From contig VHBH01000001.1 in assembly GCA_016872055.1 (NCBI GenBank), forward strand, positions 1 through 64,000: a stretch of DNA of 64,000 bases. Reading direction: 5' to 3'. This document shows, piece after piece, positions 27,943 through 33,394 of the stretch. Source of the stretch: Nitrososphaerota archaeon. Lineage in GTDB: Archaea; Thermoproteota; Nitrososphaeria; Nitrososphaerales; Nitrosopumilaceae. The notes under the pieces were generated by a model. That model worked only from the letters and a program-made list of their open reading frames with translations. It ran no database searches and was not told the origin of the DNA. Every line of letters begins with the position of its first letter. Positions within the stretch are counted from its first letter, which is position 1. The position numbers and the translations under genes are program-made.

Positions 27943-29541
27943 GTGCAGACAAAGTTCATTTTTGTTACTGGTGGCGTCATGTCTGGCCTAGGCAAGGGCG
28001 TAGTCACATCTTCTATTGCAAAACTGTTACAATTATCAAACCAAAGGATTTCTTGCGTCAAAATAGATCCATACCTCAACTATGACGCAGGAACAATGAA
28101 TCCAGTAGCCCACGGCGAAGTATACGTCACAGATGACGGCGGCGAGTGTGATATGGATATTGGAAATTACGAGCGATTCCTAAATCAAAATCTTAAGAAA
28201 ACACACAATATCACAACTGCGCAGATTTATTCAGCTGTAATAGAGGCAGAGCGCCGAGGTGAATACCTGGGTGCGTGTGTACAGATTATCCCACATATCA
28301 CAGATGAAATCAAAAAGAGAATACACAAAATAGCAGACGATGAAAAGCTTGACTTTCTTGTCGTAGAGTGTGGCGGAACGGTGGGCGACATTGAATCACT
28401 CCCATTCCTAGAGGCACTGCGACAGATGAGACTAGAAGAAGGACCACAAAGCGTATTATTTGTCCATGTTACCCTGGCACCATCATTAGATGTGGTAGGC
28501 GAGCAAAAGACAAAGCCAACACAACATTCCGTTCAAGAGTTACGGCGAATCGGTATTCAGCCAGACTTTATGGCAGTTCGATGCACAGAACCACTCTTGG
28601 AATCAACAAAAAAGAAAATCTCAATGTTTACCAATGTAACGGCAAGCGATGTGTTCTCATGTCATGACGTACCATCAATATTTTCAGTTCCGCAAATTCT
28701 CTATGAACAAGGCATAGTCGATAAAATATTTACCAAGTTTGCCAAGGTGGGTATGATAAACTCGGCTGCAAATTGGGACAAGTGGAATGTCGTGGTCCAG
28801 TCAATGCAGCAAAAAGACAGCGAAATCAAAATAGCAATGGTTGGAAAATATGTCACACTGGCAGACAGCTATGTTAGTGTAAACCACGCATTAAAGCACG
28901 CAGGAGCTAAAATTGGAAAATCAGTATCCATCGACTGGATAGACTCTGAGGGGATCAACGGAAACGTCGATACGCTATCAAAATACAACGGCATCCTAGT
29001 GCCAGGAGGATTCGGAACACGCGGAGTTGAGGGAATAATAAAAACAGCAAACTTTGCGCGAGAAAAAAATATACCATATCTAGGAATCTGCTTTGGATTT
29101 CAGCTTGCCGCAGTCGCGTTTGGCAGACATGTCCTAAATTATTCCGATGCAAATTCAACAGAATTAGACCCAAACACTACCCATCCAGTTGTGGACTTGT
29201 TGCCAGAGCAAAAGACAATGTCAAATCTTGGCGGAACCCTGCGACTAGGTGCACATGATATCACAATAAAACCAAATACAATTGCATCAAAAACATACAA
29301 TGCGGCTCATGTTTCAAGACGACACAGACACAGATACGAAATCAATACAAAATACCTGCAGGAATTCGAGAAAAAAGGCCTAGTCTTTTCAGCAGAATCT
29401 GATAATTCAAAGAGAATGGAAATGCTAGAGATTCCATCGCACAAATTCTATTTTGGAGTACAGTTCCACCCAGAGTTTAGCAGTAGGCCGGGCTTTCCAG
29501 AAGAGTCCTTTGAGGCCTTTGTTCGGGCTTCGGCAATCTAG
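27943..29541 (+). CDS. pyrG: CTP synthase
   Basis: The 532-residue enzyme aminates UTP to CTP. The synthetase domain opens with [20 protein letters not shown] and has [15 protein letters not shown] and [18 protein letters not shown]; the glutaminase domain has the Cys in [11 protein letters not shown] and [10 protein letters not shown]. The start is GTG at 27943, about 26 bases after an AT-rich TATA-like element (27911-27921). Its stop overlaps the convergent NAD kinase-like gene by four bases. Confidence 0.97.
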
Positions 29542-30533
29542 GTCTTTGAAATTTCGTAGATTTTCTGCCTAGAATCCCGCATTGATATTTTCTTTTTGAC
29601 ATAGCCTTTATCCAACAAATGTCGCAATGCTAGGCGTACCGTTCTGTCTGGAAGTAGGGTCTTTGTCACCAGATCACGCTGTGTCATGGTGCCCTCAAAC
29701 TCTAGTGTCTTAAGCAATAGCTTCGAGCTTGGAGGCATGTTAAGCAGTTCCTCTGCCAGCTTGACCTTTTTTGTTAGTGCAGAAACGGCTGTGGAGTCTT
29801 TTTTGATCTTGATTACTCGTGCTGACGACATGGATTTTGTACATTCTAGTGTGTTGTTTATTCTAAATCTGTCTACTCCATCCATTACAACCTCACAGAA
29901 CAATCGGGATGAAATGTCATCTACTTCAATAATGCTGGTGTCATGGACGATGAGCGGCCTGCGGGTAGTGTCTAATGAGTTCACGGACACTATGCCAAAT
30001 ACTGGCGAGTCCTGAAATATCATTGGACCACCAGCAGACATTGAATATGCAGAAGAGCCAATTGGTGTGGATATAATGACACCATCGCTGGAATCATGCC
30101 AGACCTCCTCATGGTTTACGCGCAAAACATGTTCCATTAGCATGGCGCTCTTTGATGAGAACACTGCGACATCATTCAAAACAGGGTAGACAGCCTTTCC
30201 GTCAATTTTGACTCCAATTCTTGAGAATTCCGACGTTTCGTAGTCTGATTTTTTTATCCTGTTTACTATAGAGGAGAATTCCTTTAGATCAATTTGGGCA
30301 AAAAATCCGCTTGATTCAGATTCTCCAACGCCAAGGACTGGAACCGGCACATCTTGGGTCTTGTGGAAATAATTGCGAACTCCCCTGTCACCACCAGTAA
30401 CAATTACACAGTCGAGGTCTTTTTGCGGTTTGTATCCTACATACCTAGATGGTAGCCCATAATCATCCAAAACGGTCTTGATTGTCTTTACGGCAATGTC
30501 TGTTGCAGTACCACCGGATATTCCTATTTGCAC
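29538..30533 (-). CDS. NAD kinase homologue fused to a C-terminal winged helix
   Basis: Residues 1-265 resemble NAD kinase: the strong signature is DGVIISTPIGSSAYSMSAGG, with NDVAVFS and RPLIVHDTS. The usual GGDGT motif reads GGDRGVRNYF (residues 47-56), so the Gly after the catalytic Asp is Arg, and the usual GxNxGxLGFL reads LGVGESESSGFF. Residues 269-331 form a winged helix (EGTMTQRDLVTKTLLPDRTV, then LALRHLLDKGYVKKK). The protein may still be the NAD kinase of this organism, a NAD(P)-sensing regulator, or both. It converges with pyrG. Confidence 0.82.
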   Translation of the reverse strand: MQIGISGGTATDIAVKTIKTVLDDYGLPSRYVGYKPQKDLDCVIVTGGDRGVRNYFHKTQDVPVPVLGVGESESSGFFAQIDLKEFSSIVNRIKKSDYETSEFSRIGVKIDGKAVYPVLNDVAVFSSKSAMLMEHVLRVNHEEVWHDSSDGVIISTPIGSSAYSMSAGGPMIFQDSPVFGIVSVNSLDTTRRPLIVHDTSIIEVDDISSRLFCEVVMDGVDRFRINNTLECTKSMSSARVIKIKKDSTAVSALTKKVKLAEELLNMPPSSKLLLKTLEFEGTMTQRDLVTKTLLPDRTVRLALRHLLDKGYVKKKISMRDSRQKIYEISKT

Positions 30534-30566: not shown

Positions 30567-31436
30567 TTAGACGTCCTTGAACTTCATTATATTATAGTAG
30601 TATGAGGCATTAACCTGAGTTTGGCTTCTGGTCGGAATCTTATCTAGCCCCACCTCTTTTGATTCAAGGGCAGCCTGTGCAGCGCCACCAGCAAAGCTTA
30701 GTGCCCATAATGCATCTTTTTCTTTGAGCATTGCACAGCAATATGTGGCAGTAAAAATGTCGCCAACTCCGACAGTGTCGTAAATGTCCATGTTTGGCAA
30801 AGTAATTGAATACTGTCTGTTTTTATGAAACAGTGAGACTTCGCGCTTGTTTGTATATAGCAAGTGTTCTATTTTTTTGTGCAGTATTTTTGCACCCTCA
30901 ATTCCCTCGACTCCGGTTAGCTGATACACCTCATTTGGGTCTGACTTGAGAACGGTTATGCCGTCAAGATCAAGGCTTGTTCTCTCAAAGGATATCAACC
31001 CATCTGGGCCTTTTCTTCGTAAAAACCCCTGTGGATCCAATGCCACAAAATCAGAATCGGATTTTATCTTCTGCAATACTTCCACAGATATTTCATCAAA
31101 TACAGGGCTGATCAGAATTCCATCTGCTTTTGTTTTGGTGTAATCAATTTTGTCACAGAGATTCTTTATCCATAATGTTCTTTCTGCGCCAGAGATGTCC
31201 AGTCTGAATCGTGTGGTATTTTTTTGGGATTGTGAGTTTTCAAACTTTATCTTGTTTTTTTGGAGATAATCTACACTGGTATAGTCAGGGCCAAACTTTG
31301 TATACAATTCCACATCAAAGCCCATGTTTTTTGCAGCCATGCCGCAATAACATGCAGGTCCGCCGGGCATGACATACAGATTTCCCCCAATGTAGATTTC
31401 ATCTATTGTACAATGAGAAAAAATTCCAAGTTTCAA
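30567..31436 (-). CDS. PfkB family carbohydrate/nucleoside kinase
   Basis: The 289-residue ribokinase-fold protein has the N-terminal PGGPACYCGMAAKNMG glycine motif and the C-terminal ATP/catalytic motif YDTVGVGDIFTATYCC, where the usual GAGD is GVGD but the catalytic Asp is kept. The lid region is short. The substrate is unknown; inositol, ribose or nucleoside kinases are possible. It begins 10 bases after a small zinc-ribbon gene, with which it is probably cotranscribed. Confidence 0.85.
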   Translation of the reverse strand: MKLGIFSHCTIDEIYIGGNLYVMPGGPACYCGMAAKNMGFDVELYTKFGPDYTSVDYLQKNKIKFENSQSQKNTTRFRLDISGAERTLWIKNLCDKIDYTKTKADGILISPVFDEISVEVLQKIKSDSDFVALDPQGFLRRKGPDGLISFERTSLDLDGITVLKSDPNEVYQLTGVEGIEGAKILHKKIEHLLYTNKREVSLFHKNRQYSITLPNMDIYDTVGVGDIFTATYCCAMLKEKDALWALSFAGGAAQAALESKEVGLDKIPTRSQTQVNASYYYNIMKFKDV

Positions 31437-31645: not shown

Positions 31646-33394
31646 GTGAGAAAACTAATCCCGGTGACACTGGACAAAAAGCTGGTCTTCTTGGTCATGG
31701 CAGTTTCCTTAATTGGAATAGGCGTGACTTTTTTCATTTCATTTCATTATACCACCTTGATTTTGGGCGAGCGGGCTACAAATCAGCTAATAGGCGAAGC
31801 TGCAATCCGAGGCTCTACCGTAGAGAGTACCATGAACTCCAAAATCCAGGAAATACAGGTAATTACCACAAACCCCATGATGAGGATACTAGTCTCGGAG
31901 CTAAACCAAATTGAAGATACACGGATACTTGCAGAGGCAATTGCGCAAAAACGAATGGACTTTTTAATCGAGGTTCAAGCATATGAGGTAAGCATTGGAG
32001 GCCTAGACGACCTAGAAAATGTGGAAATCATAGGAATTGACGGAGAACGATTATTTGTACTCATCAACACGAAAAACAAAAATGACTATATGTCTGATCC
32101 AATCTTTGTTCGCGGATTAAAAGAGCCATTTACTCAAATAATTCTTGATGCAGACGGTAAGCGGAAAATTGTAACTGCGGCACCTATATTCGAAAAACCG
32201 GAAGACCAATCACCCATAGGTGTTGCAATAATCACTGCAAGCACAAAACAAATCGACAGCATATTGTTAAACAGAAAAGGCCTAGGTCAGACAGGTGAGT
32301 CATATCTTGTAAGCATGTACGGATACATGATGTCAGAATCACGATTTATTCCAAATGCGCCGTTTGTGCAAAAAGTAGACACTGAGCCACTCAAGTACTG
32401 CCTGGCAGATGGCCAGATCTATTACGGTATACACGATGACTATCGTGGCATTTCAGTCCTTGGTGCATCAAACTGCATGAAGAGTCTCGGGATGAGTATG
32501 ATAGTGGAAATTGACGAAGCCGAAGTCTTTGAGCCAGTAAAAGAACTTCGAGACAAGATAATTGTCCTTGGCGTAATTATTACTGTTATAGTTGGAGTTG
32601 CCGCATATTTTCTATCAAAGCGCCTATCAAAGCCACTAATCAGGCTCAAAAATGCTGCAACCCAGGTTGCAAACGGCGACTTTAATGTCAGGACTAACAT
32701 CAAAACTGACGACGAGATAGGCCAGCTTTCGCGCTCATTTGATCAGATGGCAGAGCAGATTCAGGACTCTCTTCTCAAAATTAAAGAGCGCGAGGAGGTA
32801 ATCAAGCAGCAAAAAGACATACTATTACAGTTTTCCCAGTACAGCTCCAATTACTGTGTCTGCTTTGTAGACATTGTTGGTTCTACAAAACTAACATCAA
32901 AATTATCAGACATTGAGACAAGCAAGTTTTATTCTATATTTTTGAACTCAGCTGCCGGTACAATTACGCAAAACTATGGAATCGTAGTCAAAAACATCGG
33001 CGATGCATTACTGTATTATTTCCCAAAGACTGAATCTGAAGATCAGGCCCCATTTGAAGAAATGCTACATTGTTGCATGAAGCTAATCGAGGCTAGAACC
33101 ACAATCAACTTGTTACTAGGCGCAGAAAACCTACCTGAGGTAAGCTATAGGATATCTGCAATGTATGGTCCAGTCAGAGTGGCAATAGTCGCAACTTCTA
33201 CAATTGATGACATCTTTGGCTCCACAGTGAACAGCTGCTCGAAGATAAACTCGCTTGCAAAACCAAATACACTTGTAATCGGTGAATCACTGTATCAGAA
33301 AGTCAAAGACATCAAAGAATACAAGTTTGAGAAAATCTCAGAATATACAATAGATGCAGAAAACAAGTTTGCCGTGTATCTAGTATCGCAATAA
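31646..33394 (+). CDS. Transmembrane receptor: Cache sensor, HAMP and class III nucleotide cyclase-like domain
   Basis: The 582-residue protein has TM1 (about 13-35), a large double-Cache-like exterior domain (about 37-300), TM2 (about 305-324), a HAMP (325-378), a coiled linker and a class III cyclase domain (about 400-575). Metal-binding Asp409 (FVDIVGSTK) and Asp453 (VVKNIGDALLYYF), purine-site Lys449 and Asp521/522 (STIDDIFG), and Asn529 are present. The transition-state Arg of VNxAxR is Lys533 (VNSCSKI), so activity may be weak or changed. It starts with GTG at 31646. The ligand is unknown; small organic acids or amino acids are typical for Cache domains. Confidence 0.87.
   Translation: MRKLIPVTLDKKLVFLVMAVSLIGIGVTFFISFHYTTLILGERATNQLIGEAAIRGSTVESTMNSKIQEIQVITTNPMMRILVSELNQIEDTRILAEAIAQKRMDFLIEVQAYEVSIGGLDDLENVEIIGIDGERLFVLINTKNKNDYMSDPIFVRGLKEPFTQIILDADGKRKIVTAAPIFEKPEDQSPIGVAIITASTKQIDSILLNRKGLGQTGESYLVSMYGYMMSESRFIPNAPFVQKVDTEPLKYCLADGQIYYGIHDDYRGISVLGASNCMKSLGMSMIVEIDEAEVFEPVKELRDKIIVLGVIITVIVGVAAYFLSKRLSKPLIRLKNAATQVANGDFNVRTNIKTDDEIGQLSRSFDQMAEQIQDSLLKIKEREEVIKQQKDILLQFSQYSSNYCVCFVDIVGSTKLTSKLSDIETSKFYSIFLNSAAGTITQNYGIVVKNIGDALLYYFPKTESEDQAPFEEMLHCCMKLIEARTTINLLLGAENLPEVSYRISAMYGPVRVAIVATSTIDDIFGSTVNSCSKINSLAKPNTLVIGESLYQKVKDIKEYKFEKISEYTIDAENKFAVYLVSQ

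Follow-up and report, generated by a model that had tools for sequence, protein, structure and literature searches.

The 64,000-nucleotide stretch of DNA analyzed here (the window) contains, on its minus strand, a gene in which a paralog of NAD kinase (NADK) is joined to a winged helix (29538..30533). The open reading frame runs from 30533 to 29538, begins with GTG and encodes 331 amino acids, and its assignment draws on the translation, Pfam, AlphaFold, Foldseek and orthologs. NADKw is our own label for the paralog family of fused NADK-wHTH (winged-helix) proteins to which the product belongs. The closest named relative found is Candidatus Nitrosotenuis (80%), and the window probably derives from this genus of ammonia-oxidizing archaea. 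An Rfam search detected no RNA element near the gene.

A gene for a PfkB-family kinase (30567..31436, minus strand; PF00294, 38.6 bits) is positioned 33 bp upstream of NADKw in the same orientation. It has no NCBIfam match. The PfkB-NADKw order is retained in most ammonia-oxidizing archaea, and the PfkB-family gene is probably the operon partner of NADKw in these organisms. On the other side lies pyrG (27943..29541, plus strand), which is convergent with NADKw and overlaps it by the stops. As judged from its conserved synteny, pyrG appears to be a neighbor kept in place within the ammonia oxidizers and is not a predicted target. Adjoining the pfkB-NADKw pair, at 31646-33394 on the plus strand, is a gene for a dCache-HAMP-class III adenylate/guanylate cyclase receptor, which is found in the same place in the genus.

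The protein consists of three parts, all encoded on the minus strand. Residues 1 - 245 form an NAD-kinase-like domain (29799..30533), the predicted NAD(P)-binding sensor, recognized by PF20143, phmmer and Foldseek. A linker helix, residues 248 - 264 (29742..29792), connects the kinase fold with a C-terminal winged helix, residues 266 - 328 (29550..29738), of which residues 296 - 309 are the recognition helix. The initial annotation had suggested HMM searches with the whole protein and its C-terminal part. In Pfam, NAD_kinase_C (PF20143) matches with 66.7 bits, over the cut-off, and the N-terminal NAD_kinase family with 24.1 bits, under its cut-off of 25.5. MarR_2 matches residues 265 - 323 with only 20.9 bits, under the curated cut-off of 27, and MarR/HTH_24 profiles match 15 of 16 diverse NADKw orthologs. 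The kinase domain matches solved NADKs at 1e-16 (phmmer).

The AlphaFold model (pLDDT 85) has the NADK-like part first, then the linker helix, with low confidence at residues 249 - 254, and then the winged helix, which gives a pLDDT of 84 when modeled alone. The C-terminal domain comprises helices 268 - 280, 285 - 292 and 296 - 309 and strands 312 - 316 and 324 - 328, the wHTH topology of three helices, a strand, a wing and a strand, and its recognition helix is basic. In Foldseek searches of the Protein Data Bank, the whole protein finds NADKs throughout among the matches listed (E 4.6e-25 for the NADK-NADP complex 7qvs) and the C-terminal domain finds MarR-family wHTHs. Both the topology and these matches agree with the earlier proposal that residues 269 - 331 are a winged helix. 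Furthermore, the winged helix has profile matches to the archaeal wHTH proteins 1sfx, 2d1h and PH1519, and residues of the recognition helix are highly conserved among 68 fused proteins: Arg297 in 68, Thr298 in 66 and Arg300 in 65.

Active-site motifs of the fused proteins

The GGDG motif of NADKs is altered in this protein. Residues 47 - 51 read GGDRG (30381..30395, minus strand), with Asp49 kept and the fourth glycine replaced by arginine. The two deviant stretches pointed out in the initial annotation, GGDRGV (residues 47 - 52) and GVGESESSGFF (residues 68 - 78), are both present in the translation. The NE/D motif is intact and reads LND at residues 119 - 121 (30171..30179, minus strand). 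Conserved region II, DGVIISTPIGSSAYSMSAGGP, residues 150 - 170 (30024..30086, minus strand), is intact too, and the C-terminal NAD kinase signature, which had been described as intact, is indeed present as DGVIISTPIGSSAYSMSAGG at residues 150 - 169.

Motifs were counted in 68 de-replicated fused relatives and in 32 canonical NADKs. GGDG is intact in all 32 canonical enzymes, compared to 2 of the 68 fused proteins. The fourth position of the motif is Arg in 43 of the fused proteins, Lys in 13, Gly in 7, Ser in 3 and Ala in 2, the second glycine varies freely, and the loop mostly reads GxD[R/K]. Such a family-wide change rules out that GGDR is a local oddity or a sequencing error, the latter having been named beforehand as a possible explanation. 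The catalytic Asp is kept in this protein, as it is in 65 of the 68 fused proteins, contrary to an early hint that the catalytic base is altered. Asn120, Glu or Asp at position 121, Asp150, Gly151 and Tyr163 are each found in 68 of 68. Two residues are specific to the fused proteins, namely Asp147 (68/68 versus 2/32 canonical) and Arg222 (64/68 versus 4/32).

Residues required for activity of the M. tuberculosis NADK are the GGDG Asp, both Asn and Glu of the NE/D motif and, in region II, Thr and Tyr; Listeria NADK1 uses its GGDG Asp to remove the 2'-OH proton (PMC8553519). Since the Asp, NE/D and region II have been kept and the GGDG glycines lost, the NAD pocket and the catalytic base appear to be under selection and the glycines flanking the Asp do not. 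This pattern suggests a kinase fold in which NAD(P) is bound without normal phosphorylation, and NADKw is probably non-phosphorylating. Residual kinase activity is possible, because the catalytic Asp, the Asn and the Glu/Asp are retained. By its fold NADKw is a member of the NADK superfamily, yet it reads GGDR in place of GGDG, and for this reason it is not filed as a NAD kinase. One fused NADK-wHTH protein, at locus L213 of the Asgard-related genome G336, has an intact GGDGT and is possibly the ancestral bifunctional form.

Distribution of the family and the canonical kinase

The initial annotation raised the question of a second, canonical NAD kinase. The genome does encode one (G000:C1:328530), which reads GGDGT, and NADKw is thus ruled out as the sole NAD kinase-like protein of its genome. 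NADK matches were obtained in 40 of 41 genomes, this one and its relatives, and most ammonia oxidizers carry two NADKs, one fused and one unfused of ~280 amino acids. Among 299 Thermoproteota genomes searched by profile, many families have full-length fused proteins. They are also present in 37 of 119 genomes from the phylum of a Thorarchaeota MAG, one of the 37 being cut by a contig end, and in 4 of 116 genomes from the phylum of a Thermoplasmatota MAG. The fused form was found in none of 120 genomes of Halobacteriota, the phylum of a Methanosarcinaceae MAG, where the single match is unfused. Thorarchaeota, a Thermoplasmatota MAG and Vulcanisaeta carry both fused and canonical NADKs, and a canonical GGDGT kinase co-occurs with NADKw in nearly all genomes. 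A tree of the kinase domains parts the 68 fused proteins from the 32 canonical ones by one branch with support of 100/99. NADKw is an ancient paralog family that extends across Thermoproteota and Asgard archaea.

The protein at L001 and the canonical NADKs of Nitrososphaeria read STGHS where other NADKs read STAYS. A His takes the place of the region II Tyr in 11 of the 32 canonical rows, those of the Nitrososphaeria canonical NADK. The region II Tyr of NADKs stacks on the nicotinamide. The replacement casts some doubt on the canonical NADK of Nitrososphaeria as the working kinase.

The motif counts and the second kinase bear on whether NADKw is bifunctional, that is, whether it still phosphorylates NAD(H), perhaps using polyphosphate or another donor, and regulates nadA (see below) in the manner of the archaeal regulator RbkR. 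Asp49, Asn120, Glu/Asp121, Asp150 and Tyr163 are all kept, the equivalents of Asp49, Asn120, Glu121 and Tyr163 are essential in the M. tuberculosis enzyme (PMC8553519), and the L213 protein retains GGDGT. A bifunctional protein is nevertheless rather unlikely in our estimate, as the GGDG loop is changed in 66 of the 68 fused proteins, mostly to Arg or Lys and with a variable second glycine, and a canonical GGDGT kinase accompanies NADKw almost everywhere.

NAD synthesis genes and a palindrome upstream of nadA

Outside the ammonia oxidizers, the clustered neighborhoods place nadA next to NADKw with 19 genes and nadC with 9. These neighbors are mostly divergent from NADKw and are seen in both Thermoproteota and Asgard archaea; their identities derive from the sequences, matched by homologs from the genome of the window that were typed with NCBIfam, which confirmed its nadA, nadC and AspDH. 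The product of nadA is quinolinate synthase, which together with AspDH carries out the first step committed to NAD synthesis.

The palindrome GGCAA-N3-TTGCC recurs in the intergenic regions between divergent nadA and NADKw; four loci of the Asgard group (L204, L216, L220 and L221) have it in exact form. The nadA promoters of ammonia oxidizers, in which NADKw as a rule is located elsewhere, were kept out of motif discovery. For each genome the best match within ~340 bp upstream of nadA was taken, and the expectation was derived from dinucleotide shuffles. A site with at most one mismatch precedes nadA in 41 of 47 Nitrososphaeria with NADKw (0.68 expected); 30 of the 41 sites are perfect and most are at -80 to -120. 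Against an expectation of 0.18, the same holds for 7 of 15 other NADKw-bearing Thermoproteota; a family used for discovery contributes three of these. Upstream of nadA in the 54 genomes with nadA but without detected NADKw, no such site was found, against 0.38 expected; 'without NADKw' stands here for the lack of a fused-like profile score, a definition that a very diverged fused copy could escape. The co-occurrence of the site and NADKw gives a Fisher p of 2.8e-20 by genome. The test by family (p ~5e-4, 8/15 versus 0/18) is fairer because the genomes are related; two of the eight positive families, f66 and f19, come from discovery loci, as does f22. About half of the NADKw-bearing families tested are without a site of at most one mismatch before nadA.

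In the genome of the window, the site GGCAAAAATTACC has one mismatch. It precedes the nadA match by 84 bp, on contig C3 and outside the window. In Nitrosopumilus-like genomes the start of the site is 7 bp past the AspDH stop codon and 90 bp ahead of the ATG of nadA, and in ammonia oxidizers a TATA-like TTTAAAT follows ~43 bp downstream of the palindrome. Perfect sites are rare, 1 - 6 per genome in ten whole ammonia-oxidizer genomes. In one of these (G176) the sole perfect palindrome is the one before nadA, and most of the other perfect sites checked in ammonia oxidizers lie within genes. A second target shared by the ammonia-oxidizer genomes was not found. In the basal Nitrososphaeria loci L230, L247 and L255, the nadA promoters carry GGCAA/TTGCC half-sites ~30 bp or more apart and no compact palindrome.

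Co-occurrence is the only link between the palindrome and NADKw, and GGCAA-N3-TTGCC is a candidate operator that NADKw would bind. It could instead be bound by some other winged-helix regulator inherited along with NADKw, in which case the kinase part would be a remnant with a moonlighting role or simply an enzyme. Similar recognition helices do occur in stand-alone wHTH proteins, but the absence of sites from all 54 nadA promoters of genomes without detected NADKw and, where nadA and NADKw adjoin, the position of the site in the intergenic region that they share make another binder quite improbable. The stand-alone proteins, at L211:1450-1797 (minus strand) and L212:1474-1716 (plus strand), have the same recognition-helix residues as NADKw and may share its candidate DNA site; one of their genes adjoins a thioredoxin-reductase-like gene.

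NADKw itself and the neighborhood of pyrG had been put forward as targets in the initial annotation. Between 29400 and 33500 of the window, a region that includes the pfkB-NADKw promoter, there is no palindrome with 0 - 1 mismatches, and pyrG, pfkB and NADKw itself were rejected as targets within the window for want of a candidate site. The PfkB-NADKw-pyrG synteny retained across the ammonia oxidizers would accord with control of the gene's own surroundings. Outside this group, however, the neighbors are different, with nadA and nadC recurring, and regulation of pyrG or pfkB is very unlikely. NADKw appears to target NAD synthesis rather than pyrG.

Half-sites accompany the palindrome at a preferred distance. 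Within ~60 bp of the palindrome in 51 non-redundant promoters, 22 of 33 extra half-sites (GGCAA or TTGCC) are at a center distance of +28 to +33 bp and 3 further ones at -30 to -32 bp. The spacing of +28 to +33 bp corresponds to about three helical turns and would fit a tetramer with two pairs of winged helices. NADKs have been described as dimers or tetramers (PMC8553519).

At six loci (L146, L165, L166, L171, L172 and L175) MFS or amino-acid-type permeases are divergent from NADKw. L146 has a perfect site just before NADKw, between it and the MFS transporter, which is closest to the aromatic-acid/H+ symporter type, below the family cut-off. L165 and L166 have a one-mismatch site between NADKw and the divergent permease, which has no NCBIfam match. 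The L146, L165 and L166 genomes are absent from the nadA-positive set, and our guess is therefore that these transporters import niacin or a relative, which would make them candidate archaeal niacin transporters.

Proposed mechanism and known regulators

Most likely, NADKw is an NAD(P)-sensing transcription factor that arose from a NAD-kinase paralog and controls NAD supply. The kinase fold, probably tetrameric as in many NADKs, would use its ancestral pocket to bind NAD(P)(H). Arg or Lys in place of the fourth GGDG glycine would do away with the usual loop for the phosphate donor and may bind a 2'-phosphate, creating a sensor instead of a kinase. NADP(H) would be the simplest ligand, and NADP is the first guess because an Arg or Lys beside this Asp would come close to the 2' position on the ribose of the adenosine. 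The C-terminal winged helices would read GGCAA-N3-TTGCC before nadA, often doubled ~30 bp away, and in other lineages a site before NADKw itself and the divergent transporter. NAD synthesis, or the uptake of precursors, would then be set by the level of NAD(P). The default assumption for the sign of control is repression by NAD(P), but activation would also be allowed, given that the ammonia-oxidizer site is upstream of the TATA-like box. Two alternatives had been offered for this gene initially, a kinase that also regulates transcription and a NAD(P)-sensing repressor that has lost its kinase activity. The canonical NADK, the family-wide loop change and the candidate site before nadA favor the latter.

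NAD kinases (NadK/PpnK, PF01513 + PF20143) have the fold, NE/D, region II and catalytic Asp in common with NADKw, whereas GxD[R/K], the fused winged helix, Asp147, Arg222 and a separate side of the tree set NADKw apart. Three types of regulator of NAD synthesis are known in bacteria, NadR, NiaR and NrtR (PMC6800001). NrtR is the closest known system in logic, by analogy: like NADKw, it is an enzyme fold turned into a wHTH regulator, with its gene by nadA/B/C and an intergenic site (PMC6800001). It is, however, bacterial and Nudix-derived, whereas NADKw is archaeal and contains a NAD kinase domain. NadR is likewise a multi-domain regulator with enzyme domains and is NAD-responsive (PMC6800001), but this bacterial protein combines a repressor domain with NMN adenylyltransferase and ribosylnicotinamide kinase, domains unrelated to those of NADKw. 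NiaR regulates NAD synthesis and uptake, the role predicted for NADKw, but is a niacin-responsive bacterial repressor without an NADK domain. Within archaea the closest analog is RbkR, which, as cited in PMC8305020, couples a cofactor kinase to a DNA-binding domain and controls its own pathway. RbkR has an N-terminal HTH and a riboflavin kinase that keeps its enzyme activity, in contrast to the C-terminal wHTH and different kinase family of NADKw. Pfam and NCBIfam scans of NADKw gave no match to a Nudix domain, to NMN adenylyltransferase or ribosylnicotinamide kinase domains, to the NiaR family or to the archaeal riboflavin kinase domain. Judging by domain content, NADKw shares an enzyme domain with neither NrtR nor RbkR, and is none of NrtR, NadR and RbkR.

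A search by title and abstract, mostly of papers outside subscription journals, found no published account of an NADK-wHTH regulator in archaea. Control of archaeal nadA by an NADK-derived regulator has, as far as found, not been described before. On balance we lean towards a further class of NAD-homeostasis regulator beside NadR, NiaR and NrtR, and the first that was found in archaea: an ancient, tetrameric, NADP(H)-sensing transcription factor of TACK and Asgard archaea that would have arisen from NAD kinase through Arg or Lys in the GGDG loop and fusion to a wHTH, and would act on tandem GGCAA-N3-TTGCC operators, spaced by three helical turns, before nadA or precursor transporters.

The control of archaeal NAD synthesis is essentially undescribed in the searchable literature. 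The present analysis names a candidate regulator, with a predicted DNA site and target, in the abundant ammonia oxidizers and in Asgard archaea. If the proposal is true, NADKw would be a clear-cut example in which a loop change converted a metabolic kinase to a sensor while the catalytic Asp was conserved, and many archaeal proteins annotated as 'NAD kinase' are probably regulators.
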